Assembly: GCA_963978905.1 (NCBI GenBank)
Contig: OZ022257.1
Span: 15,271,664 to 15,335,663 of the forward strand
DNA length: 64,000 nt
Direction of reading: 5' to 3'
Origin: Trichostrongylus colubriformis
Lineage: Eukaryota; Nematoda; Chromadorea; Rhabditida; Trichostrongylidae
Every line of letters begins with the position of its first letter. Within the stretch, counting starts at the first letter, position 1. The notes beneath the pieces are model-generated. The model did not search any database. It worked only from the letters and a program-made list of their open reading frames with translations, and was not told the DNA's origin. Below, one piece after another: positions 3,972 through 60,198 of the stretch. The position numbers were made by a program, and so were the translations under genes.

Positions 3972-4708
3972 TAGGAGGTGCCAAAAAGTAGTATTTCGTT
4001 TACGGCCCACATCCGCCAAGTATACAAAACACAGGAAAATGAGCGCGATAAAAGTATTGGGGCAAGATAATCCCAAAATGTTTCTTTAGAGACAGGAGCA
4101 AGCTGACACTCACTACTTTGCCACCTTCAAAATACGGAGCCTTCAGTCAGCGCATATGGGCTTCAGAACACCTACGGTATCAAGATCCGCTCCAAACAAT
4201 GGAGCCACGTTTCGTGGTACGTCTTTTGGGGGAGATTTTTGGGGATTAGCGCTTCGTTGCATGAAAGTCACAGAGCCCTTGCTGCTTGGACAACGCTTCT
4301 ATGATCTGAAGTGTCATTTTTTATGCCTCAAACCCTCTTTCGGAAGGGTTTCAGTGGTAATGGCACGTTTTGGCTCTTGGAAACGAAGGGCTTTGGGTAC
4401 TCGAAGAAAAGGGAATTTTCAAGAACACCATCCATTATGAATCCCTTCAAGTACACAGAGCGAACGGACCTCAGCAAGGTTGTGAGCGAGAGCGACCAAA
4501 TCTCGGATTCTGCCGTGTTGAGGCGACACATCATGTTCACTCGGAATAAGCTCCCGATTCTGTTCGTGCAGAAGGCTGTTACGGGTTTAGTAATAGAGGA
4601 GGTCTGGTACTGAATTTGGGGATGGAAGTACCTCGTCAGAGTTTGCTGAAGCTCGACCAAAAAAGGATTGAAAGTAGAGGAGAAAAAATAATTTTTTTGG
4701 TACCCCTG
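3972..4708. mobile_element. MITE family M1, copy 1 (737 bp, TA-flanked)
   Basis: The left terminus (AGGAGGTGCCAAAAA after a TA) and the right terminus (TTTTTGGTACCCCTG before a TA) form imperfect terminal inverted repeats matching the ends of the 24687-25478 copy. The interior is collinear with that copy and with the broken copy at 17602-18141. TA duplication and a CAGGG-type end place it with Tc1/mariner-mobilised non-autonomous elements. Several open frames of 90-110 codons inside it are incidental. Confidence 0.75.
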
Positions 4709-7698: not shown

Positions 7699-7785
7699 GC
7701 GACGATTTTTTACGATTTTCGACGTGATCCATGATTCATCAGCGGTCACGATTTTATAAAAGTCTCGCTCTGATGATTTGAAAAG
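7699..7785 (-). pseudogene. Mariner transposase fragment (first catalytic D region)
   Basis: The minus-strand frame reads ERDFYKIVTADESWITSK, matching the mariner core around the first catalytic aspartate (usual form: FL.RIVTGDE.W). The frame loses resemblance on both sides. The fragment abuts the outer edge of the left arm of the large inverted repeat, and no equivalent is visible at the right-hand edge. Only about 30 residues of a roughly 340-residue protein are recognisable, so it is a relic. Confidence 0.55.
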
Positions 7786-8286
7786 CAAATTTGAAATCAG
7801 CGCTAAAGGTACGTACACTGAGATATAAAACACTGCAAATGATCCCCTCGACCTGTTATTCTTTCCTTGTCGGATATATGAGTCGCTAACATTCTTCTGT
7901 AAGTGACTGGACTGTACTTTTGGAATCATTCTTCACTTTATAAAGCCTGATCAACCGTATGACGGTACACCATTATTGAATTGTGAACCATAGAAGTTTT
8001 AGCTAGGAGATGTACCTTGCCTCATAATGGCACTGCTGAGGAGGGAGCTATGCACAAGATAGCCTGCCAGTGGTCATTTTACAATCTGAGGAATACGTAT
8101 GTAGCTGGCTGTGACTTGTTCGAAGTCTTGCAGTGCGATGTTAGTAGTTTCCATTCATTTGGTTGCCACAATGTTACCCGTTCTAACCCACCGTATTGTT
8201 ACCTTAAAGAAGTGATAATGCGATGAACTTCTAAGAATCTGTGTTTACGCACCATTGTACTGCGCTTACGCCTGAGGTTTTACCGG

Positions 8287-8352
8287 AAGGTGCCGTCGCG
8301 ATGGATGATCGAAAAGATCTTGCAAGACTTTTGGGACAACCTAATACATCAC
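8287..8352 (+). pseudogene. Mariner stub in left arm
   Basis: About 65 bp matches, in mirror orientation, the 3' part and terminal repeat of the mariner at 14877-15431, including CTTGCAAGACTTTTGGGACA followed by ACCTAA and a TA. The rest of the element and some flank are missing. Since both arms carry the same insertion at the same site, the insertion probably predates the inverted duplication, or was copied across by gene conversion. Confidence 0.7.
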
Positions 8353-8981
8353 GGAATGGCTGCGAGTGTAGTGAGTAGGTGCTCATACATGGCATTAGAT
8401 GGATAGTAAAGTACCAATCACTTCCCCATGCTTTGAGCTGTAAACTTCCTCTATCGTTCCCTATCCCAACTACTCAATTACAGATAGAGACCGATCAATC
8501 GACACACAAAATAAGTGATTTATATAACAGAAGGAATCGAAAATGGAACATTTGAATTGGTTGTCATTACATTCGGCCAGCTGATATTTGGGACAATCGC
8601 GGGTGACCGCTTCAGCGTAGATGAAAGTCGTTACTTGGGTCCTTGATGAGCTTCATGCAGGCACAGCGGCAGTTGTACAGAAACCTCCGCATGTTGAACA
8701 AATCCGCTAAAGTGCAAACGGCCCCCGAATCTTGTATACCCTTGTGACTTCAGCAGCTCGTAGTTGGCATCCCTTTCGTAAGCTGCAGATCAATTTGAGC
8801 AGGAGAAGTAAACGTGAGCTGGCTCATCAAGCACTGCATCCTCAATGAATGTGCCAAATTTCGACTATAACATGCTGCAAATCTTGGGACTGTGTTAGAA
8901 TCATAACGATGTTCGGCGAACTAAAAGAACCTTCGGTAGATTTGGCAGCCTAGCAGAGTGACTGCTTGTGTGCAAACATTT

Positions 8982-9735
8982 TGCATCCGTTAATGCCATT
9001 AAGTGCTACTGGAACTCCGAGTCGTCACTACCATCATTCCTCCTCGCCACCGTTGTGATAGCCACCGTTGAATGCTATTTTTGGAACCAATGACGACGCG
9101 TAGAAAAGAGGTAGAACAAACATTCTTTTGCATCCGTTAACGCCATTAAGTGCTTCCAAAACTCCGAGTCGTCACTACCATCATTACTTTTCGCCGCCGT
9201 TGTGAAAGCTACCGTCGAGTTGTCGGATGGACCCATGCGGGGTCACAAAAGGGCGCGCGTGTGACCTACACGCGGGAAGGGAGGAACGAACTTTGTACCC
9301 TGAGGGCCATATATAAGGGGCACCTTCCACAAGAGGTATAGATTTTTTTGGAGACTACCCGGACTCGCCATTCGACGACATCCCGGCAGCCCTCACCCGG
9401 AAGACCTCTCGCCGTCGCCTGCAATTTTTTTTACATCGTTATTATTATTGTTGTGTTTTTTACTAATAAACCGTTCGCTACTGTTGTGTTTACCACCCTC
9501 GCACTCTGGGAAGGCAGCCATATCGTGCAGAATACTATTTTAGGAACCAATGACGACGCGTAGAAAAGAGGTAGAACAAACATTCATTCGCATCCGTTAA
9601 CGCCATTAGGTGCTACTGGAACTCCGAGTCGTCACTACCATCATTCCTCTTCGCCACCGTTGTGAAAGCCACCGTTGAATACTATTTTAGGAACCAATGA
9701 CGACGCGTAGAAAGAGGTAGAACAAAATTTTTAGT
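8982..9735. repeat. Three-unit minisatellite (about 146-bp unit), left arm only
   Basis: Units begin near 8982 (TGCATCCGTTAATGCC), 9129 and 9588, each containing AACTCCGAGTCGTCACTACC and GAACCAATGACGACGCGTAG. The first spacing is 147 bp; the second is 459 bp because a 309-bp LTR-like insert with a 4-bp duplication interrupts unit 2, leaving 146 bp. The right arm has only the start of one unit (near 14190-14235), so the array expanded in the left arm. Confidence 0.75.
9221..9529 (+). mobile_element. Probable solo LTR (309 bp)
   Basis: It begins TGTCGGATGG and ends ATCGTGCA (TG...CA), flanked by GAGT and GAAT, a near-perfect 4-bp duplication. It contains a TATA-like TATATAA at 9310-9316 and AATAAA at 9465-9470, in the order expected for an LTR promoter and polyadenylation signal. 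Removing it restores the 146-bp minisatellite unit exactly. No internal retrotransposon sequence is present. The family (BEL/Pao or another) cannot be told from the LTR alone. Confidence 0.6.
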
Positions 9736-10301
9736 GAAGGAGTGGTAGTATGTGGTACGCGGTATTGACAGCGTCCACATGTATTTTATTTGACGTCTGC
9801 CATCAACAAAGAGAAGACTAATATTATTTACCCAACGTCGTCAGGATGCTGGACCCACAACCTTTGCACTGCAGTTGTGAACATCACTGACTTTGCCGTT
9901 GCAAGGTATCGGACGTGATGTTTTCGTGTGTGGAAAACAACGGACAATCCACGTTCTTATTTGATTCTTTCACTACGGTGATCGCTTTTAATTGGCGCTC
10001 CAATGTTCTATCACACAGCCCATCCTGTGCCTTCGAATGGCGATGCCCTCCTCTCATACTCATGAAGTGTGTCCACGGATCATAGAGATATAATTTCATG
10101 AATTATTTCCTTCTTACATTCAGCCAGAATTTTCTGTGATTCATAATTCTTTCTTCAGAAATATGATAATCTTTCTAAAGAAATAGCAGTAATAAGAGAA
10201 ACGCCTCCGTGGGTATAGGTAGATGATCACAAGGAGAATCCATATTCTATGTTCTCTCATCTCATGCATGTCAATATCTGCAGCGTGCTTTATAAAAAAC
10301 A

Positions 10302-10307
10302 TTTATT
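10302..10307 (-). terminator. Polyadenylation signal of left-arm peptide gene
   Basis: AATAAA on the minus strand, 26 bp beyond the stop codon at 10334. It is conserved in the right-arm copy at 13646-13651. Confidence 0.65.
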
Positions 10308-10333
10308 GATTTTGCAGCAAAATATGAAGCACT

Positions 10334-11110
10334 TTAGACGGGGGTCCCTTCATTGCTGTCATCAACCGAGGTGCCTTCCTCAGAACTTACATCTTCCGAA
10401 AAACTCTGTGGCGCCTCAGGAACACTTCCTTGGGACGTGGTCGGCACCCAACTCGGGCGCGCCATATAATTCTTCGAATTCTCCATCACCCTCCTCAAAG
10501 AGTCGAATGGATATGACGCCTAAAAACTGACCTGTTAACGTTCGATTTATTCTTCAAAGGGAATCATCCATGAATATTGGGCCATTGGGTGCCATTGGAG
10601 CTCTACATATGGTGATATCTTAGCGAAATATTCTATATCTAGCTTTATCACTTGCGGAGCACTCTTCCGACCTTCTACGAAACACATAGAATTGGCTTTA
10701 TATTTTTACATTGACGATTTTCCCCTTCTACCTTTCAGCATTACTCCCTTCCACTTTAAGGCATGACTACAAAAGAGCACTGCTTCCAAGCCCCCGGCCA
10801 GCTGCATGAACGTTAACAAAAAATTGCTGTACCGCGTGGAATTCGCAGTTTAAAAATAGAGGAATATCCTTTTTATGTGGAACTCCTCATAGCGCCACGC
10901 CTTGATTCGATTGCACTGTTACGATAGAAAGCGTGCAATATACGAATTCCCCTACGAGCATGTTTCGAAATTTCTTATTACAACGGTACAGGAAACGGTT
11001 GTCTCTGGGCTCTATGCTCCGGCCTGATTCTGGTGCCAACTTACCGCGTTAATCATTCCATTATAGAATCCGATAACAAGAGCAAGGCTAAGGAAGTAAA
11101 AGAGCCACAT
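10334..11110 (-). CDS. Predicted secreted peptide, left-arm copy (two exons, 83 aa)
   Basis: Exon 1 is 11110-11045 and exon 2 is 10519-10334; the 525-bp intron starts GTAAGT and ends TTTTTAG, phase 0. The product starts MWLFYFLSLALVIGFYNGM, a hydrophobic signal-peptide-like segment with probable cleavage near residue 22. It continues with about 61 residues, including SYPFDSLRRVMENSKNYMAR, a proline/serine-rich middle and an acidic tail ending DDSNEGTPV. There are no cysteines. An in-frame stop lies just upstream of the ATG, and AATAAA follows the stop closely. The only differences from the right-arm copy are six third-position changes, all synonymous. An in-frame GTAAGT inside exon 2 after SFSED could be an alternative donor. 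I do not recognise the family. A secreted signalling or effector role is inference. Confidence 0.7.
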
Positions 11111-11249
11111 CACTGGATGCCTGCTTCGTTGCTGCCCTGCTTATATGAAGCTCGATACGTGCAGTATTGCAATCCAACGAACATAGCGCGCCTGGTGTAT
11201 ACGTGGTTTCTGCAGTTTGCACTTCCACATGCGCAGTGTGTTACAGGAG

Positions 11250-12697
11250 AATTACTCACATGAAGATTTTGAAAATTGCTTGCCAGGATTAGTTGCCCGT
11301 GCTATGTCTGGTCTATGGAATGGTTACCCCTGAACATTAATCACCATTAAGAGGAGCTTATGTGGAACGCCCCGCCTGGAACGTTCATCACTAATGAAGA
11401 GGAACTCATGTTGCACTGATTAGAACATTATAATCAAGCCCATAACCATACAAGGGAATTCATGAGATTAACAAGATTGACACTGATATTGGCATCAAGG
11501 CACAAATATGCTTGTCAAAAGCAATGAGTTAGAGAAACCGAAAAGGGGCACATAAGTGCGCAGAGCAAAAGACATTACCCTTTACATATGTTCCCTTGGA
11601 TCCAGTTTACTCAGTCAAATGATGCATCAACTTTTGACTGGTTTCCGTTTCTCTTTGTGTGCTATGTATCTCCAGCATGTGTTCGCTGATGACAGTTGAA
11701 AGTTACAGGGTGGTTCATCGTCAAATAGGAATTACCTCTTTTATTCGCTTTCAAAACAGCTGATTTAGCTTCAGCTTAAGACATTCCAAGCTAAGCCAGG
11801 AAAGTCTTCGAAATTGCCAGCTAATTTCAATCCAACTTGATGCACATTTTCCAAGCGTTCCTGTTTCTTTGTATGGAAGAACGGTGCTTAACAGAGGAAT
11901 AGAAATCCGTCACAATAAGCAAAGGTTAATCTTTTCTTAAAGAGGACACTAACTGTCCCTAAGAAAGTCTTATTTCAGAAACTACGTATGATCATGTAGA
12001 TATCTGTACGTTTCGCTAACTTGTAAGTAAAGGCTGGCACGAGGAAACTAACAAAGCGGGTAATGTTTTCTGTGCTGAATATTCTCCCAGGCCCCTAAAA
12101 GATTACTGTGCTGCCAATGGACACGTGCGGATGACGCTATGTATACAAAAAAGAAACGGGAACCAGAGATAAATTGAGGAACCATCTGGCTGGCAAACAT
12201 ATGCGATTTGATTTCAATTTTGCTCGCAAACCCTGACCGTTCTTGAGTTTTGCTTGTGCCCCCAATGTATTCGAAAGCTTCTCAAATTGCTGGATCGTGA
12301 ACAAACAGCTCCCAATATAAAATAGAACATGGAGGGATGATTTCATTTTCCAAGCATTGAATTCGTATTGACATTATCATAACAACAAGGCTGCCATACT
12401 GTCACCTGTGGTCATCCGCAGACATTTAGTGAGCCACAAATCTCATGATTGTACTCGTGAAACGATTTCATATTAATATTTTTCGAAATACTTGAACTGC
12501 AATGGATTTGGTCAATCAAATGTGGGCAGCAGTGCGAACAGGTGAGTAACGTGGCGAAAAGATCGACGTCTTAAAATCAACGTGTATAAAAGGTAATATC
12601 TTTAAGTAGGTGCAATTACATGTACTTTTTTGCAATATCACTGTTTGCGATACTTTTCAGTAGACTTTATATTTGGAATCCCTCCGAATTAGGGGAA
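11250..12697. other. Unique spacer at centre of the large palindrome
   Basis: About 1.45 kb with no inverted counterpart. It lies between the divergent 5' ends of the two peptide-gene copies, so it could act as a shared bidirectional upstream region. I see no supported coding exon in it. Confidence 0.5.
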
Positions 12698-12802
12698 ACG
12701 CTCCTGTAACACACTGCGCATGTGGAAGTGCAAAATGCAGGAACCATTTATACAGCAGGCGCGCTATGTTCGTTGGATTGCAATACTGCACGTATCGAGC
12801 TT

Positions 12803-12811
12803 CATATAAGG
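12803..12811 (+). promoter_or_regulatory. TATA-like motif upstream of right-arm peptide gene
   Basis: CATATAAGG lies about 30 bp before the ATG at 12840. The same motif (CATATAAGC) precedes the left-arm copy. If used, the 5' leader would be very short, so it may instead be chance or a site within a longer leader. Confidence 0.3.
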
Positions 12812-12839
12812 AGGGCAGCAACGAAGCAGGCATCCAGTG

Positions 12840-13619
12840 ATGTGGCTCTTTTACTTCCTTAGCCTTGCCCTTGTTATCGGATTCTATAATGGAATGATCA
12901 ACGCGGTAAGTTGGCACCAGAATCAGGCCGGAGCATAGAGCCCAGAGACAACCGTTCCCTGTACCGCTGTAATAAGAAATTTCGAAACATGCTCGTAGGG
13001 GAATTCGTATATTGCACGCTTTCTATCGTAACAGTGCAATCGAATCAAGGCATGGCGCTATGAGGAGTTCCACATAAATAGGATATTCCTCTATTTTTAA
13101 ACTGCGAATTCACGCGGTACAGCAATTTTTTGTTAACGTTCATGCAGCTGGCCGGGGGCTTGGAAGCAGTGCTCTTTTGTAGTCATGCCTTAAAGTGAAA
13201 GGGAGTAATGGTAAAGGTAGAAGGGAAAAGTCGTTATCGCAAAAATATGAACCCAATTCAATGCGTTTTCATAGAAGGTCGGAAGAGTGCTCCGCAAGTG
13301 ATAAAGCCATATGTACTTGGATTATTTCGCTGAGATTTTACTACACATAGAGCTCCAATGGCTCCCAATGACCCAATATTCATGGATGATTCCCTTTAAA
13401 GAATAAATCGAACGTTAACAGGTCAGTTTTTAGGCGTCATATCCATTTGACTCTTTGAGGAGGGTGATGGAGAATTCGAAGAATTATATGGCGCGCCCGA
13501 GTTGGGTGCCGACCACGTCCCAAGGAAGTGTTCCTGAAGCGCCACAGAGTTTTTCGGAAGATGTGAGTTCTGAGGAAGGCACCTCGGTTGATGACAGCAA
13601 TGAAGGGACCCCTGTCTAA
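12840..13619 (+). CDS. Predicted secreted peptide, right-arm copy (two exons, 83 aa)
   Basis: Exon 1 is 12840-12905 and exon 2 is 13434-13619, joined in phase 0 across a 528-bp intron (GTAAGT...TTTTTAG). The predicted protein is identical to the left-arm copy: a 22-residue hydrophobic leader ending MINA, then about 61 residues with one dibasic RR, a serine/proline-rich centre and an acidic C-terminus. The exons differ from the other copy at GCC/GCT, ATC/ATT, TTT/TTC, GAA/GAG, GTG/GTA and CCT/CCC, all silent, whereas the introns differ at many positions with indels. This pattern argues for purifying selection or for gene conversion limited to exons. AATAAA lies 26 bp after the stop. The two copies are divergently transcribed, with ATGs 1.73 kb apart. 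No known family was recognised. Confidence 0.72.
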
Positions 13620-13645
13620 AGTGCTTCATATTTTGCTGCAAAATC

Positions 13646-13651
13646 AATAAA
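13646..13651 (+). terminator. Polyadenylation signal of right-arm peptide gene
   Basis: AATAAA 26 bp after the TAA stop at 13617-13619, within TTTTGCTGCAAAATC-type flank shared with the left arm. Confidence 0.65.
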
Positions 13652-14261
13652 TGTTTTTTATAAAGCGCGCTGCAGATATTGACATGCATGAGATGAGAGA
13701 ACATAGAATATGGATTCTCCTTGTGATCATCTACCTATACCCACGGAGGCGTTTCTCTTATTACTGCTATTTCTTTGGAAAGATTAGCATATTTCTGAAG
13801 AAGGAATCATGAATCACAGAAAATTTTAGCTGAATTTAAGGAGGAAATAATTCGTGGTATTATATCTCTATGATCTGTGGACACACTTCATGTTATACAG
13901 AGAGTAGGACCTCACCACTTGAAGGCAGAGGATGGGCTGTGTGATACGGCATTGGAGCGCCAATAAAAAGCGATCACCGTAGTGAAAGAATCAAATGAAA
14001 CCGTGGAATGTCCGTTGTTTTCCACCCACGAAAACATCACGTCCAACACCTTGCAACGTCGAAGTCAGTGATGCCCTATAATTGCAGTGAAAAGCTTGTG
14101 TGCCCAGCATACAGATGACGTTGTGGAAGCAATATTAGCCTTCTCATTTTTAAAGGCAGACATCGAATAAAATACGCGTGGCTATGAATGCTCTCAGTGG
14201 AGCTTCAGCAGCTCTTGATGGCGTTGAAGGATGCAAGATGTTTGCACACAAGCAGTCACCC

Positions 14262-14600
14262 TGTTAAGCTGCCACATCTATCAAAAGGTTCCGTAAGCTC
14301 GCCGAACATCGTTATGATTCTGGCACAGTCCGAAGATTTGCAGCATGTTATAATCGAAATTTTGGCACATTCATTGTGGATGCACAAGTCCTGATTAGCC
14401 AACTCACGTTCACTTCTCCTGCTCAAATTGAACTCCGCAGCTTACGAAAGGTATGCTAACTACGCGCTGCTGAAGTCACAAGAGAATACCCAATTCGGGG
14501 CCGTTTCCACTTTAGCGGAGTTGTTCAAGAAACGGAAATCTCTGTTCAACGGCCGCTGTGCCTGCATGAAGCTAATCAGGGACCTGAGTAACGACCTTCA
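14262..14600 (+). pseudogene. Decayed coding region shared by both arms
   Basis: One frame reads KRFRKLAEHRYDSGTVRRFA and onward to TSPAQIELRSLRKVC, then stops. The next frame continues ANYALLKSQENTQFGAVSTL and onward to CACMKLIRDLSND. The left arm (about 8600-8960, minus strand) has similar peptide strings (AEHRYDSNTVPRFAACY, then RCACMKLIKDPSNDF) broken by different frameshifts and stops. It looks like a relic of a real protein-coding segment, or an intron may separate the two frames. The family was not recognised. Confidence 0.35.
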
Positions 14601-14876
14601 ACGCTGGAGCGGTCAACCACGAATCTCCCAAATATCAGCTGCCCGAATGTCATGTCAACCAGCTCAAATGTTCCATTTTCTTCTATTATATAAACGCTTA
14701 TTTTGTGTGTCCGTTTCCGGTCTGCATGTCTGTCTGTCTGTAATTGAGTAATTGGGATAGGAAACGATAGAAGAAATCTAGCGCTCAAAGTGTGGAGGAG
14801 TGATTGGTACTTTACCATCCATCTAATGCCATGTATGAGCACCTACTCACTACACTCGCAGCCATTCCGTGATGTA

Positions 14877-15431
14877 TTAGGTTGTCCCAAAAGTCTTGCA
14901 AGATCTTTTCGATCATCCATCGCGACAGCACCTTCCGGTAACCGGGCTCGTGGAGGCGACGGTTTACGGTTATGGGTGCTTGTCCATTCCTGTCCGCCAG
15001 CTCGCGCATGGTGGTTTCAGGATCGGCGCGAACGGTGGAGAGCAACGTCTCGTTGTCGAATGCGTGTGGGCGTCCCATGCGTGGCTTGTCTTCCATGTCA
15101 ATCTCGCCGTTGCTGAAGCTGATGAGCCAGCGGCGCACGATCACGTAGCTCACACATCCCTTGCCCAATGCAGCGTTGATGGAGCTGCAAGCTTCCGTCG
15201 CTTTGCTGCCTCAAGAAAACTCATACATAGTAAATGACACCCCGTGTTGGGTGGGTATCGACTACAGGCCTTGTAGTTCTCTCCACGGAATCTGGTGGGT
15301 CAATATATATTTTTCTAGAAAGCTTAGAGAACGTTCTGCCAAATTCCTAAACCGCCTAGACCTGCCTCGAAGTAAACAAGAGTTACTGATTTTTTTTGGA
15401 AAAATCCTGCAAGATTTTTGGGACAACCTAA
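14877..15431 (-). mobile_element. Internally deleted mariner element (555 bp)
   Basis: The terminal repeats TTAGGTTGTCCCAAAAGTCT at 14877 and the complement ending ACCTAA at 15431 are each bordered by TA (14875-14876 and 15432-15433). The interior holds only the N-terminal part of a mariner transposase on the minus strand, joined directly to the far terminal repeat, so the catalytic half has been deleted. It could only be moved by a transposase supplied from elsewhere. A stub of the same insertion remains in the left arm at 8287-8352. Confidence 0.85.
14905..15228 (-). pseudogene. Mariner transposase N-terminus (truncated, one in-frame stop)
   Basis: The reading begins MYEFS, meets a TGA stop, then continues GSKATEACSSINAALGKGCV, VRRWLISFSNGEIDMEDKPR and MGRP. 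This is the helix-turn-helix and GRP linker region typical of mariner transposases (FRSGDFDLEDKPRSGRP-like). The second helical domain (TMRELADRNGQAPITVNRRL) follows, and the sequence then runs straight into the terminal repeat. The DDD catalytic domain is absent, so the protein cannot be active. Roughly 100 of about 340 family residues remain. Confidence 0.8.
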
Positions 15432-15942
15432 TACATTCATCGTACTAATCGTCAGCGCAGTAGTATGCTGCGTAGATACAAATCCTTAGAGGATCATCAC
15501 ATAACCACATCGTTAAAATAACAATACGGTGGGTTGGAACGGGTAACACTGTTGCAACTGAATGAATGGAAACAACTAACAATGATTGCAAGATTTCCAA
15601 CAAGTCACAGCCAGCTACATACGTATTCCTCAGACTGTAAAATGACCGTTGGCAGGCTATCTTGTGCATAGCCCCCTCCTCAGTAGCGCCACTGTGAGGC
15701 ACGGTACATCATCGTAGCTTAGGCTTGTATGGTTCACAGTTCAATAATGGTTATTGCCGCCATACGTTGATTATGCTTTATGAAGTGAAGAATGGTCTCA
15801 GAAGTACAGTCCAGTCACTTACAGAAGAATCTTAGTTGCTCATATATCCGACAAGGAGAGGATTACAGGTCGAGGTGATCATTTGCAAGGTTTTAGATCT
15901 CAGTGTACGTACTTTTGAGCGCTGATTTGAAATTAGTTTCTA

Positions 15943-16830
15943 AATCTGCAGAACGATTCTTTGAGCGGAGTTATGGAGGTTTTTCTGAATGCACCGCTTT
16001 CACATGTCCATATAAGCGTGTTCTTGCCCCCTCGCATATAAATGCAGGAAAAATTCATGATTTACCCGCAGCACATACCACAGAGGTAGAAGTGGCGATT
16101 TGAAGTGGTCATCTGCAAAAAGACACATAAAGGTGTGATCATGGATGGGATCCTCATTGAAGCACTTTTTTGCTTTTTAGAAGGCTATATCATTTATGTA
16201 TGGTATAAAGTCCCTAAAAGTGACACTAATTGTTGTATTCCGCTTGCTGCAATATCCCTGTCTGCATGATTGTTGAGAACTCGGTGATCCAACTTGTTTG
16301 TATGAGTGACTCCCGTAACACACGAATCGGGCGTGGAGTGATTATTATTTATATTTGTGCTCAAAGGGTCTAATTCCCCTCGGTGACAGTTTCAGCAAAG
16401 CGCGTTTTTGGCCTAACTTCGGAAAATTGGGGCTGTACATGTGGTAAGTAACGAAAATTTCCTACAATACCATTAACCACAACCAAGATAACGAATCTAC
16501 TACAGCTGCCTTCACACTAAATGTGCGTCGCAAACGTCAAATGAAGGCATTTGCTCGCCAAGTATCAACGACTCCTCTTTGTTCAATGTGTTGCCATCCA
16601 AAGCTCATAGATTTTCCCGAACTCTGGTCAAACTCTCAAATCGACTGAAAATTGGTTCTATAGCATGATTTGATTCTTCGAACACGAAAGTCTAATTAGG
16701 TTGTGCGCGACACTGCCTGGCTCGCGCGCTGCTTGCCGAACTTACCACTCATTAATATTATCTATACACAGAAGGCCCGATAACTCCATTCGGAAAATAG
16801 TTCGGCCGATTTTTAACACTTATTTGAAGC
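15943..16830. repeat. Diverged half-copy of the 61-62.9 kb palindromic family
   Basis: Words in the same order as the palindrome at 60929-62873 can be followed: CGATTCT..GAGCGGAGTTATGGAGG near 15953, GTTTTTGGCC.AACTTCGGAAAA near 16404, CAACGACTCCTCTTTGTTCAA near 16566, and GGCTCGCGCGCTGC near 16720. Similarity is patchy. No coding function is supported; the 94-codon frame at 16701-16985 lies within the repeat. Confidence 0.5.
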
Positions 16831-17601: not shown

Positions 17602-18141
17602 AATCCGAAGTGTAATTCTTCATGCCTCAAACTCGATAGGTTTCAGTGGTAATGGCACGTCTTGGTTCTTGGAAACGAAAGACTTTGGGAACTCGACGAG
17701 AGCGGAATGTTCAAGAACACCACCCAATATAAATCCCTTCAGGTAAGAGTGAACGGACCATTGCAAGTTTGTGAACTGAGTGAAAATCTCAGATTTTGCC
17801 GAGCTGAGGTGACACCCTCATGTTCACTTGGAAAAACCTTCCGATTCTGCCCACGCCAAAGGCTGTTACAGTCCATTTAGGAGCGCTTCATAGGGCGTGG
17901 CCTACGGACTTGGATGAGGTGTATTGACTCTCTCACCCGGCCACACACTCTCACTCTCGCCACTCTCCCAAGTCCGTAGACCACGCTCCATCAGGCGCTC
18001 CGAGATGACTGTACATGGCCTCGTGATATTGTGAAAGTGTTCTTGAATTTGGGGATGGAAATACCTCGTTAGAACCTACCGAAGTTTTTATAGTAGAGTT
18101 AAAAGTGAAGAAGAAAAAATTACTCTTTTTGGCATCCCCTG
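17602..18141. mobile_element. MITE family M1, 5'-truncated copy 3
   Basis: Homology to the 3972-4708 and 24687-25478 copies starts near 17602 (ATCCGAAGTGTAATTCTTCA) and runs to the right terminus TTTTTGGCATCCCCTG at 18141, followed by TA. The left terminal repeat is missing. A separate short palindrome (17881-18002) interrupts it. Confidence 0.65.
17881..18002. repeat. Small palindrome inserted in the truncated M1 copy
   Basis: GGAGCGCTTCATAGGGCGTG followed by GCCTACGGACTTGG on the left is matched by CCAAGTCCGTAGACCACGCT and CAGGCGCTCC on the right. The corresponding position in the 3972-4708 copy lacks it, which indicates a later insertion. Confidence 0.6.
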
Positions 18142-24686: not shown

Positions 24687-25478
24687 CAGGGGGTGCCAAA
24701 AAAAAGTAATTTTGCCCACAGCTCACATCTGCCAGTTATACAAAGCATAGGGAAACGAAAGCGATGAAAGTATTGGGGCAAAATATTCCCGAAATGATCC
24801 TCTAAAAGCAGGAACAAGCTGAGACTCACTACTTTCACTTTCATAAAAATATGGAGCTTTCATTCGGGACTCACTACTTTCACTTTCATAAAAATATGGA
24901 ACTTTCATTCGGCGCAGTCGGGCTTCGGAGTACCTACAGTATCGAATGCCGCTTAAAACAGTGAAGCCAGGCTTCATGGTAGGTATTTTGTGGAGCTTCC
25001 TGAGGATAGGCCCTTCGGTTCATGGAAGTAACACAGCCCCTGCTGCTTGGACAAGGCTGCTATGATACGAAGTATCATTTTCATGCCCAAGTCCGCCTCC
25101 GGAGGGGTTTCAGTGTCAGTGGTAAAGGCACGTTTTGGCTCTTGGAAACGAAGGGTGCTGGGAACCCGGAAAAACGGAATGTTAAAGAACACCACCCAGT
25201 ATGAATCCCCGTAGGTACCCAGAGTGAACGGACCTCAGCAAGGTTGTGAACGAGGGCGACGAAATACCAGATTTTGCCCAGTTGAGGTGACACATCTTGT
25301 TCACTCTTTTCTCGCTCTCGTTCGTGCTCGTGCAAAAGGCTGCCACGGAGTATAGTGATAGAGTGAGGTCTGCTCTTGAATCTGGGGATGTAAATACCTC
25401 AACAGAATTTGCTGTAGTTCGACTAAAGTGGGGTGAAAAAGGAGGAGACAAAATTACTTCTTTTTTTGGCACCCCCTG
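24687..25478. mobile_element. MITE family M1, full copy (792 bp, TA duplication)
   Basis: The ends CAGGGGGTGCCAAAAAAAAG and its inverse ending GGCACCCCCTG are flanked by TA at 24685-24686 and 25479-25480. The paralogous sequence at 22456-22480 (GATGCGAATACACACCACAG) is the empty site, proving insertion with duplication of TA. It has no transposase of its own. A 29-bp motif is tandemly repeated at about 24820-24905. Confidence 0.85.
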
Positions 25479-30200: not shown

Positions 30201-32849
30201 GCAGAGGATTGGAATACAACGCACAAAGGGGACTAATAGTTGAGAGATCCTTTTTCATATTTACCGCTCTAAATTGCTGGGCATCGGCTCATTGAAAGTT
30301 CTCTGTAGAGTAAGGTAGATTATCCTACTGTATCTTGATATGAGTACAATGGACGCGCCACTCCCGATAGTGCTGCTCCCGACCCCGATGCGACTGCCCC
30401 GGAAACGAGTAATTTCGTCCAGCGAGAGGACAACGGGCATGACGGGGATTGGCGAGCGGGAGGTCGGGTCACTAATGAGATGAGACCGTTGCACGCAGTC
30501 GACCACCAGTCCCCATAAACAAGCTCCTCGTGGATCCCAGAAGGAAGGCAACATGCAGCACGACGAACCTGATCAATGAGCCCTCCGAAAAGACCCAGAT
30601 GATTGGCCGGGTACGAAGCGAAAATGCCGGCGGTGGCTTTTGGTCCAATCACCGCTCGAATACCTCCGTCAAAGCTGTTGATTGCCTCTGAAAAGAATAA
30701 TGCAGCAGTGTAACTGCTCCTGACCTGCTCCTGAAGACGGTGAGCAGGAAATCGACGACTTACCGTGATACAGAGCATAGGCTAAGGCAGAGCCGACCAG
30801 AGCACCAAGGGTCTGCACGATAGTGTAGAGGATGAAGCGAGCAGGCGCCAGCTGGCGGAAGCTCAAGAACATCAACGACACAGCCGGATTGATATGACCT
30901 CCTGCAAAACCTTTAATGTGCTGACGACCTTGGTGAATAAACGCCGCAACAATCGTCAACGTTAATCGTCGATAACAGAAGCCAATGAAAAGGTGACGAT
31001 GAAATGCTCTCAAGGAGAATCACATTTTTCGCATTTCAAAACAGCGATCAAATCTGGTTTCCTAGGTTTTTGCAGCCATTAACTTCTGTTGCGTTACTGA
31101 AAGCAGTTAATAAACGAATGAGCAGAATTTTTCCCCTTTAAAATCTCCATTTGACTGAGACTTAGTCATAAAGCTTACTGTGAGGGTGTAAAACTGCAAG
31201 TGCCTTTCGGGACCTGCTGCATTATTAGAATTTTTCAGGCTTCCAGGAAGGTAACTTAGGCAACTGAAACGGTGGGCTGAGTAGAGGTTTTTCCAAAAAA
31301 CGACGGGCGCGGGAAACACAATTTGAAAGCCGTTAGGTCAGACTTTAAGAGATCCGGAACGGTTCTGAACCATTTTGGAAGATGCTGAACGATCTTTCTT
31401 CTTCCGAATTCCTTCTAAGCTAATTTAATTCCTCAGAACCGCTGTGATTTAACTCCTTAACCCCAAACATCCTGCCCCCGACTCTGAGCCCTGTTATCTG
31501 CTAGTTCAGCAGATTTCGAAACATGACTCCACAGATGTGTCTCAGAACCCTAAAGCACACTTTTTTACCCAGAAATAGCTCCCCAACCCCTGGAAAATAC
31601 GAATCGACTTCTGTTCTTATAACAAACCTCCCTGAGGCCCTAAATGGCTCCAAAACTGTGTCATCAGGTGTTTTTCCACCTTAATCCTGCTGTTCACTTC
31701 TTCAACTCAATCTGAAACATGGGGTCCCAAAAAAGAATTGTCGTCCTTACTATCACAGCCGACTTCCTCTTCCTGCCCTTTGCCACTCCCATACTTTGCA
31801 GTGATAGCTGGTTCCAGTCTGATTCAGGACGGTGAACTTTTGAAACAAACGTGGACATTTTGTTCGTCATTGCTCCCCCCCCCCCCCCCCTCATTGTTTA
31901 CCAGTCCGCTGAATCGACCCAACGCAGTTTCTCTCAAGGTGAAGGTCATACGGTCATCTCCTAACCCCCCTTTCGCTTTATGGTTTTTCGCGTCCAAGTC
32001 AATACCCAGCGTAATTATCCTTTACTAGATCCCTCCAAAGAAAACTCTTTCTTACCTGAGATCTTTGCAGATATGGCAACACCGAATGCGATAGCCAAAC
32101 CGAATCCGACGTTTATTCCGATCATTTCATTCAGTCTTGGACGTGGTAGTACACTTTGGGCGACGACACAGTTGCCGATCAGCTGAACAAGGCATCATTA
32201 AAGAGCGAAGGTCCTACAGCTGTAAGGATTACCCCGATGATCCTGCCCCATGCAAACCTTTCTCATCTCCTTCTTTAAAAGCAGTTTAGTCTGTTTTGGC
32301 ATGCAAAGAGGAGTCTCTTGAGTACCTCACAGCAACCAATGCCATTCATTTTCCCATGGGACTCGACCAGCCAGATAATAGCGGCCCATTTGTCGCCGTT
32401 GAAACGCCAACTGGGGACACAACGAAGCTCACAGCAGCATAATACATATTATGCGATGCGTGTCATTTGCAATACTATGGACGGGCTGGCTGGCCGGCTC
32501 GCTGGCTGGTCGCGGCGGCCGACTGGCCGATGTCCCTTACAGATGGATGGCTCGTCGCGTCGTGAATTTCTCTCCGCAAAGGCATTAAACGGCATATCAT
32601 TGCCATTGTGTATAGCGAGGGAAGAGTAAATAGCCATTGCTTCTGGCTACTGATGTGAATTGAGTCATAATCAAAGCTCAGTAGTAGCTATTCCTAGCGA
32701 CCAATTATCGCCATTTCCTCGACCGGTGAAATACGCTAAAAATAGGTAAAAATGAAGCTTACCAGCAGCAGAGCTGTGCCCATGAACTCGGCGATCAGAG
32801 CTCGTCCCAGCTCGTTCCGAATATGCATTTTCGTACGTAATTTATCCAT
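27249..32849 (-). CDS. Aquaglyceroporin (MIP family channel), seven exons, 284 aa
   Basis: Exons (minus strand): 32849-32763, 32182-32056, 30901-30764, 30687-30569, 29865-29779, 29722-29595 and 27417-27249. All junctions keep frame with GT donors and acceptors such as TTGTTCAG, TTTTGCAG and TTTCAG. The protein is a six-helix plasma-membrane channel for water and small solutes such as glycerol. Both pore half-helices are present: GGHINPAVS and [13 protein letters not shown]. The D after the second NPAR is the classic mark of glycerol-conducting members. The [10 protein letters not shown] and [20 protein letters not shown] stretches resemble vertebrate AQP9/AQP3-type proteins. Length is normal for the family. 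The start [20 protein letters not shown] was chosen because it follows an acceptor-like TTCAG by two bases. Introns range from 56 bp to 2.2 kb. It is probably one of the nematode aqp genes, but I cannot name the orthologue. Confidence 0.93.
28030..28100. repeat. Fragment of MITE family M3 in the last aquaporin intron
   Basis: GGGTCGTACTGAAGCGGCTA followed by TTTTCCTCGACACCTAGGAG matches the 46735-46925 palindrome and, inverted, 56586-56660. Runs of GGGGGGTCGT near 27846-27886 are probably related. Confidence 0.5.
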
Positions 32850-58929: not shown

Positions 58930-59187
58930 CGAGACTCTGCCTCATTCCCCTTATTCCCCAGACCCATCTCCAACCAATGACCATTTTTTCCGGGTTCTCG
59001 ATGCAAATCTGCGCCAGAAGAAATTCGCCGATACTACAGGGTGCGCCATAATTATAGCGAATGTGCGCGCGCAAGAGATTTGACCCCTTATTCAAACCCG
59101 TTACTTTTTTCTGGGCATTTTATGTTTTCATAGCGTTACAATGATCATAACAAAATCATACCACTATTCATTCAAATCCCTTCTAGA

Positions 59188-60198
59188 ATGGTTAAGAGTT
59201 CCTGCCACCGAATGTCCATAATCGAGCTTCACCTCCGAGGAGTTTCGGCACGCAAGATCCACCGCCGTCTTGGAGTTCACATCAGCGTTGTCTACAGGAC
59301 CATAAAACGATATGAAGATCTAGGAACTGAAGACGACCGTTTTAGACCTGGAAGACCCGTCTCCATTTCTACGGAGAGGAATCTCAAGAAGGTACGTGAA
59401 AGATTTCGCCGTAATCCCGAGAGGTCGGTTCGCCAAATGTCGCGAGAACTGAAGATAAAGGAGACTACCCTAAGGAGAATGGTTCGAAGTCTCGGACTGA
59501 AGGCATTCAAAAAGAATAAATGCCAAAAGCTCACTGATCGTCAGAAAATCAACAGGAAGGAGAGGTCGAAACTGTTGCTCAGAAGATTTGGAGACCAACG
59601 ACACCGCTCGATCCTGTTCACAGATGAGAAGCTGTTTACAGTTGAGCAAGCTGTCAACAAGCAGAACGATCGTGTTTATGGCGTTTCGAACCCGCATGCT
59701 ACCGTGAGCCGGTGTTCTCATCCTGCTTCAGTCATGGTTTTTGCTGGTATCACATCTGATGGGAAGACCCCACTGTGGTTCGTTCCAGAAGGAATAAAAA
59801 TCAACAGCCGAAACTACCTGGACCTGCTGAAGAAGGAATTGCTCCCCTGGGCTAACAGTCATTTTGGGAGTAGCCCATGGACGTTCCAGCAAGATGGGGC
59901 TCCTGCCCACAAGGCGAAAATCGTGCAGGACTGGTGCGAGGTCAGCTTCCCAGACTTCATCGCCTTCGACGAGTGGCCACCCAATTCTCCTGATTTAAAT
60001 CCCATGGATTATAGCGTGTGGTCTATCTTGGAAGCCAAAGCATGTTCGAAACCACATCGCTCCCTCGATTCGTTGAAGAAAACCCTCCTGAAAGCATGGG
60101 ACGATCTTGACACCACCTACTTGCGTGCCACCGTCGATGCGTTTCCAAAACGTCTCGAGGCCTGCGTTGAAGTCAACGGTGATGTGTTCGAAGTATAA
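59188..60198 (+). CDS. DD37D Tc1/mariner transposase, 336 aa, intact
   Basis: A cut-and-paste transposase. Residues about 1-50 and 65-105 form two helix-turn-helix DNA-binding domains separated by a RPGRP motif (53-57). The catalytic core has D146 (ILFTDEKLF), D236 (WTFQQDGAPAH) and D274 (SPDLNPMDYSVW), with 37 residues between the second and third aspartates. That spacing defines the DD37D (maT) clade, as distinct from DD34D mariner and DD34E Tc1. The end VEVNGDVFEV is mariner-like. The 336-residue length is normal for the family. It is intronless with no stop or frameshift. The start was chosen as the first ATG giving a complete N-terminal helix domain. Confidence 0.95.
   Translation: MVKSSCHRMSIIELHLRGVSARKIHRRLGVHISVVYRTIKRYEDLGTEDDRFRPGRPVSISTERNLKKVRERFRRNPERSVRQMSRELKIKETTLRRMVRSLGLKAFKKNKCQKLTDRQKINRKERSKLLLRRFGDQRHRSILFTDEKLFTVEQAVNKQNDRVYGVSNPHATVSRCSHPASVMVFAGITSDGKTPLWFVPEGIKINSRNYLDLLKKELLPWANSHFGSSPWTFQQDGAPAHKAKIVQDWCEVSFPDFIAFDEWPPNSPDLNPMDYSVWSILEAKACSKPHRSLDSLKKTLLKAWDDLDTTYLRATVDAFPKRLEACVEVNGDVFEV

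Follow-up and report, generated by a model that had tools for sequence, protein, structure and literature searches.

Divergent gene duplicates that lie in inverted repeats and are homogenized by gene conversion are known from hsp-16 of Caenorhabditis elegans and hsp70 of Drosophila, both of which are heat-shock genes residing at one or two loci. Toxin-like multigene families are characterized by conserved introns and fast-evolving exons. Inverted arms that are kept alike by gene conversion are also described for mammalian sex-chromosome palindromes and their ampliconic genes (PMC3403216, PMC3723533, PMC8981503). The locus described here resembles these palindromes in having inverted arms that appear to be kept alike, but the main arms in the stretches fetched reach no more than about 3 kb, are 81 to 99% alike, and occur on several contigs. 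It differs from the heat-shock pairs in encoding a peptide family with 87 exon junction sites in the genome. As in toxin-like families, the signal exon is conserved and the mature exon changes faster than the intron between loci; unlike in those families, silent sites are also raised, which is not the pattern of clean positive selection, and the searches showed no resemblance to any known family. We consider it likely that the two genes form a divergent pair within a large family of secreted peptides of Trichostrongylus-type nematodes, with partners that have been converted arm to arm.

The window, by which we mean the entire 64,000-nucleotide stretch of Trichostrongylus colubriformis DNA that was analyzed, carries two divergent two-exon genes lying back to back, whose predicted products are identical and 83 residues in length. 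The preliminary description had proposed these mirror-image genes, and the coordinates, reading frames, and phase-0 GT-AG introns of both copies proved to be as claimed. The parts of the two genes are as follows.

12804..12810, plus strand: TATA-like box ATATAAG of the right copy, about 30 nt 5′ of the ATG (TATA-like element in 33/33 copies)
12840..12905, plus strand: exon 1 of the right copy, ATG and 22-residue likely signal peptide (conserved in 33 aligned copies)
12906..13433, plus strand: phase-0 intron of the right copy, GTAAGT...TTTTTAG (gene reading and family alignment)
13434..13619, plus strand: exon 2 of the right copy, 61-residue mature peptide and stop (gene reading and family alignment)
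13646..13651, plus strand: AATAAA poly(A) signal of the right copy, 26 nt 3′ of the stop (sequence motif)
11140..11146, minus strand: TATA-like box of the left copy (sequence motif)
11045..11110, minus strand: exon 1 of the left copy (gene reading)
10520..11044, minus strand: phase-0 intron of the left copy (gene reading)
10334..10519, minus strand: exon 2 of the left copy (gene reading)
10302..10307, minus strand: AATAAA poly(A) signal of the left copy (sequence motif)

Each gene is ordered as a TATA box, a short leader, exon 1 with the likely signal peptide, the phase-0 intron, exon 2 with the mature peptide, and AATAAA. With regard to an RNA gene, no Rfam family reached its cutoff within the 64-kb window.

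The predicted product agrees with the earlier account of a hydrophobic leader followed by a cysteine-free 61-residue chain with an acidic tail. Exon 1 encodes the leader MWLFYFLSLALVIGFYNGMINA, which has a hydropathy peak of 2.65 and, by hydropathy and the cleavage rule, a permissible cut after A22; the residues at this position are INA in the window protein and VNA in most relatives. The splice point falls at the likely signal-peptide cut. Because of its hydrophobic leader, the product is probably secreted, and it would enter the secretory pathway and be cut after residue 22. Exon 2 encodes the 61-residue peptide (pI 4.1). The released product would be a cysteine-free chain of roughly 60 residues that begins with a basic, partly helical portion and ends in an acidic Ser/Glu tail; most members also carry a Thr-rich stretch. 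In the three copies computed, the first 26 mature residues carry a charge of +1.8 to +3.8 and the remainder −8.6 to −11.6. Structure predictions, which are of low confidence, place one short helix in the mature part, at the basic front.

The window copies differ at six exon positions (codons 10, 20, 27, 57, 66, and 82), and a codon-by-codon comparison agrees with the claim that all six changes are synonymous. The neutral chance of this outcome is 10⁻⁴ to 10⁻³, varying with transition bias and uncorrected for the choice of gene model, and for this reason the family evidence presented below weighs more. Among 72 stop-free stretches of at least 20 codons each, exon 2 is the sole one with four or more differences that are all silent. 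Antisense frames were considered as true genes and rejected: a 107-codon frame over exon 1 has two silent and eight replacement changes, and a 103-codon frame over exon 2 has no silent and five replacement changes.

The preliminary description had also reported that the introns and flanks carry many changes. This is true for intron positions 13200–13376 (25/172 arm-to-arm differences) and for the DNA past approximately 13,776, but not for intron positions 12906–13199, with 5/294 differences (98.3% identical, fewer per base than the 6/252 of the exons), nor for the 3′ DNA at 13620–13760, with 1/141. Because half of the intron and the 3′ DNA are also highly identical, the exon-versus-intron contrast within this pair does not serve as proof of selection. 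In this pair, silent differences (6/60) exceed those of intron 12906–13199 (5/294) with P of about 0.004 (range 0.003–0.015), an excess that gene conversion does not explain.

The genes are more than the local duplicate that they had been taken for. A pattern covering the exon 1/splice-donor junction, with three or fewer mismatches allowed, occurs at 87 genomic sites, and the reversed control occurs at none. These sites are distributed over contigs C7 (54 of the 87, on this one 49.8-Mb contig), C6 (14), C3 (12), C1 (3), C5 (3), and C8 (1). A genome search with the window gene gave at least 43 matches, with 40 of 107 candidates scored. Our first alignment combined 31 further copies with the window pair (33 in all); only matches of at least 800 bases were kept, a floor that excluded partners cut by the ends of the stretches. 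All 33 copies have two exons, a phase-0 GT-AG intron of 505 to 548 nt, and a TATA-like box, and 26 have an exact AATAAA within 90 nt 3′ of the stop. Thirty are intact and encode 79 to 88 residues in seven protein lengths, with exon 2 gaps of whole codons; the other three are broken by a stop within exon 2, a frameshift, or a lost stop. Some further intact copies have shorter introns, down to 274 nt.

A second batch of 18 copies comprised four that are incomplete, nine that are fully or almost intact (one stops four codons short), and five that are broken. Note that this batch was aligned quickly, which may overstate breakage, and that a copy was dropped if it had a 240-base stretch identical to that of a copy already included, so that true identical duplicates may be absent. 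Altogether, 39 of 47 complete copies keep the ATG, the phase-0 GT-AG intron, and an open exon 2 (one being four codons short), and eight look broken. Frame-breaking changes in relatives, named earlier as evidence that would count against a gene, are thus confined to a minority of these paralogs, an outcome that mostly favors the gene.

The divergent arrangement recurs well beyond the window. Adjacent divergent pairs within 7.5 kb, a limit set after the list was seen, account for 50 of the 87 sites, compared with a mean of 18.5 and a maximum of 36 in 5000 strand shuffles. At a limit of 4 kb, neighbors are divergent in 23 cases, tandem in three, and convergent in two. Three C6 sites (32,951,142; 36,752,644; 36,768,143) were counted as single, yet each has a partner that the junction pattern missed. 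At one C7 locus (L028, ~7.229 Mb), the arms almost touch, with nearly no spacer; the start codons there are ~100 bases apart, which suggests a shared two-way promoter.

Purifying selection is evident from seven within-locus divergent pairs, which bear out the earlier claim of a real gene under such selection. Replacement differences number 15/1368.6 (1.1%), silent differences 24/410.4 (5.8%), and noncoding differences 285/5432 (5.2%), giving a dN/dS of 0.18 (replacement versus silent, P = 2 × 10⁻⁷; silent versus noncoding, P = 0.57). The replacement rate is approximately one-fifth of the silent or the noncoding rate. When the window pair is removed, the counts are 15/1175.6 replacement and 18/354.4 silent. 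The seven-pair set omits L009 and L011 (near copies of L012 and L010), L013 and L024 (broken partner), L014 and L018 (incomplete partner), the third gene of L025, and copies with the two partners on different stretches.

Over the family as a whole, dN/dS is milder, at 0.53 in a codon model applied to 18 to 26 distinct sequences, with 0.52 for the mature part, 0.64 for the signal, and 0.25 for the first 28 aligned mature codons; a counting method with 30 sequences gives 0.48 for the signal and 0.63 for the mature part. Between loci, the mature exon outpaces its intron, silent sites included (dS 0.43–0.75 versus 0.26–0.29). Specifically, comparison of the window gene with 13 others yields a mature dN of 0.55, a mature dS of 0.75, and an intron divergence of 0.29, and the 13 others compared among themselves yield 0.26, 0.43, and 0.255. 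Because silent sites are raised as well, plain positive selection would not produce this fast mature exon. Possible causes are alignment error, an older divergence of exon 2, or constraint on or conversion of the intron.

A protein search with the window product as a single sequence yielded no match. This result was misleading, since a profile built from 15 family members (the window protein included) later matched six proteins, all from T. colubriformis: GCK32_022502, GCK32_021865, GCK32_022273, GCK32_022205, GCK32_017294, and GCK32_000322 (E values of 1.5e-43 to 4.6e-18). One record is named 'Secreted protein', and the records are otherwise hypothetical or uncharacterized. Two of the six closely match genes read here: GCK32_022502 at 98.9% identity and GCK32_022273 at 98.6% over its 69 residues. 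This agrees with T. colubriformis, or a very close worm, as the source of the window and with the strongylid origin assumed earlier. The other four show 86 to 98% identity to genes read here over the aligned part; their exact counterparts may be missing because 51 copies (four of them in part) were read of 87 or more. Three of the six records start at residue 19 and lack most of the signal exon, and GCK32_000322 leaves the family pattern after approximately residue 42.

The window pair is a divergent member of this family, with 36 to 61% identity to the six proteins over the aligned part. The marks taken to define the GCK32 family are a signal peptide, a (R)PSYxDxxxxLxxNSR core, a Thr-rich stretch, and an acidic tail, and the window protein belongs to this family by profile. 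It keeps the signal, the SY..D core, the NS, and the tail but has ASYPF for RPSYA and no Thr run. The two-exon organization with a phase-0 intron of ~0.5 kb is a feature of the copies read in this genome, as the GCK32 records were compared as proteins. Pfam and PDB searches returned nothing or chance-level matches only, with no known domain in the product, and none of the publications retrieved appears to describe the peptide family. The earlier statement that no homologous family is recognized therefore stands with respect to named families, and the profile reached only T. colubriformis proteins. Because Haemonchus, Ancylostoma, Nippostrongylus, and Caenorhabditis sequences are in the database, close annotated relatives probably would have appeared, although distant or unannotated relatives would have escaped notice. 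In the protein set searched, the family is so far seen only in Trichostrongylus-type nematodes.

The genes in the window lie within the arms of an inverted duplication. Arm-to-arm difference is ~14.6%, save in three main blocks (1.5 to 1.8%) and a 31-base stretch at the arm end. The relevant features are as follows; strand does not apply to the arms, spacer, and blocks.

7759..11249: left arm of the inverted duplication (arm alignment)
11250..12700: spacer separating the arms, 1451 bases (partly homologous to spacers of the C3 pairs at 17.3 Mb and the C6 pairs at 32.9 and 36.8 Mb)
12701..15962: right arm, ~85% identical to the left outside the high-identity blocks (arm alignment)
12757..13201: block with 1.8% arm-to-arm difference, comprising core promoter, exon 1, and first half of the intron (arm alignment)
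13374..13776: block with 1.5% difference, comprising intron end, exon 2, and 3′ DNA (arm alignment)
14810..14937: block with 1.6% difference (2/128), comprising a dead mariner end and its flank (arm alignment)
14872-15436: short mariner-like element with terminal inverted repeats in the right arm (Mos1-type transposase remnant beside the mariner end)

The blocks are sharply bounded, and their borders do not follow exon borders. In the left arm, just one mariner end survives, near 8280-8349. Among the 11 loci represented by both partners, a tree of whole units places partners as sisters at six (the window and L024 to L028). At the other five, namely the four C3-array pairs (17.30-17.34 Mb) and L013, it is the same-side arms that group together, and the partners do not come out as sisters. 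The window spacer aligns with C3-array spacers over up to ~1240 bases and with C6 spacers (32.9 and 36.8 Mb) over a few hundred; a second spacer class, at L020 and L024 to L027, is related within itself and not to the window spacer. The arms of two C3 units differ very little in exon 2 (3/180) but by ~10% in the introns, a pattern that selection or local conversion could produce.

Gene conversion between the arms is indicated as the process that would hold the window partners alike, given the noncoding likeness of the blocks within arms that are 85% identical, the dead mariner end included, and given that the window partners are sisters despite a spacer homologous to spacers elsewhere. Purifying selection without conversion, acting on the coding sequence and on nearby regulatory DNA, could also keep the copies alike: the silent sites of the window pair (6/~56, 10.7%) approach the arm background of 14.6%, and a regulatory role is conceivable for the start of the intron and for the 3′ DNA. 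Nevertheless, we regard this explanation as unlikely, because the dead mariner end and its flank (2/128) match as closely as the gene does, intron 13200-13376 diverges to the background level immediately next to a 98% stretch, and the window partners are sisters even though their spacer is common to other loci. Separate inverted duplications at each locus might instead have made the sister pairs, as would fit the widely varying arm and spacer lengths and the C7 pair at 7.229 Mb that nearly lacks a spacer. However, the alignment of the window spacer with C3-array and C6 spacers implies that pairing at those loci arose before dispersal and before the window partners came to be alike. The second spacer class aligns only within itself, so this argument holds per class, and it leaves separate duplication rather unlikely. 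Still more improbable, in our judgment, is that the pair was carried or made by a mobile element having long inverted arms, with an open frame that serves the element. Copies are indeed dispersed on six contigs, and the more distant ones have in common a unit of ~1 kb (roughly 12690-13734), but the product has no known domain, and what is under selection is a protein that probably bears a signal peptide.

The division of the mature peptide into basic and acidic parts suggests either that it is processed or that it forms a glycosylated coat, secreted or at the surface. An antimicrobial or membrane-active peptide, in which the acidic tail restrains the basic helix, would fit the charge split noted above, and the helix segment is amphipathic in 4/4 group-A members tested, a degree that shuffles reach in 1 to 4% of cases. 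In contrast, 3/3 group-B members tested are not amphipathic (shuffles, 36 to 40%), which makes the helix reading weak; as the product also lacks cysteines and belongs to no known family, we hold an antimicrobial function to be improbable. No repeats ending in Gly and a basic pair, as in a neuropeptide-like precursor, were seen when the family sequences were read by eye. Because the mature exon diversifies between loci and the signal exon does not, the peptide may act outside the worm or at its surface, as an effector, defense, or coating peptide. Judging solely by how large the family is, how restricted to one lineage it appears, and how it has diversified, we favor a host- or environment-facing secreted role over reproductive or internal signaling with roughly even confidence. 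Of the earlier suggestion of a secreted effector or signaling peptide, secretion is thus probable from leader hydropathy, and we infer the function as a lineage-specific secreted effector or surface peptide.

More tentatively, the pairs might constitute a self-homogenizing palindromic cassette that has spread over several chromosomes, in which partners stay alike as loci diverge, yielding a library of distinct host-facing peptides that are each made from two matched genes. This worm is a common parasite of the sheep gut, and if the peptides are expressed at the host interface they would be candidate species-specific antigens or diagnostic markers. In addition, the dispersed mirror-image pairs would allow gene conversion to be measured at many loci in one nematode genome.

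Elsewhere in the window, a dispersed repeat occurs at 4304-4582, 17603-17869, and 25113-25305, with copies ~79% identical. A partial major intrinsic protein (aquaporin) gene lies at 30669-31019 on the minus strand (Pfam MIP, E value of 3.5e-12). On the plus strand, positions 59134-60198 hold an uninterrupted 354-residue Tc1-type transposase frame that is 71% identical to a Haemonchus contortus protein.
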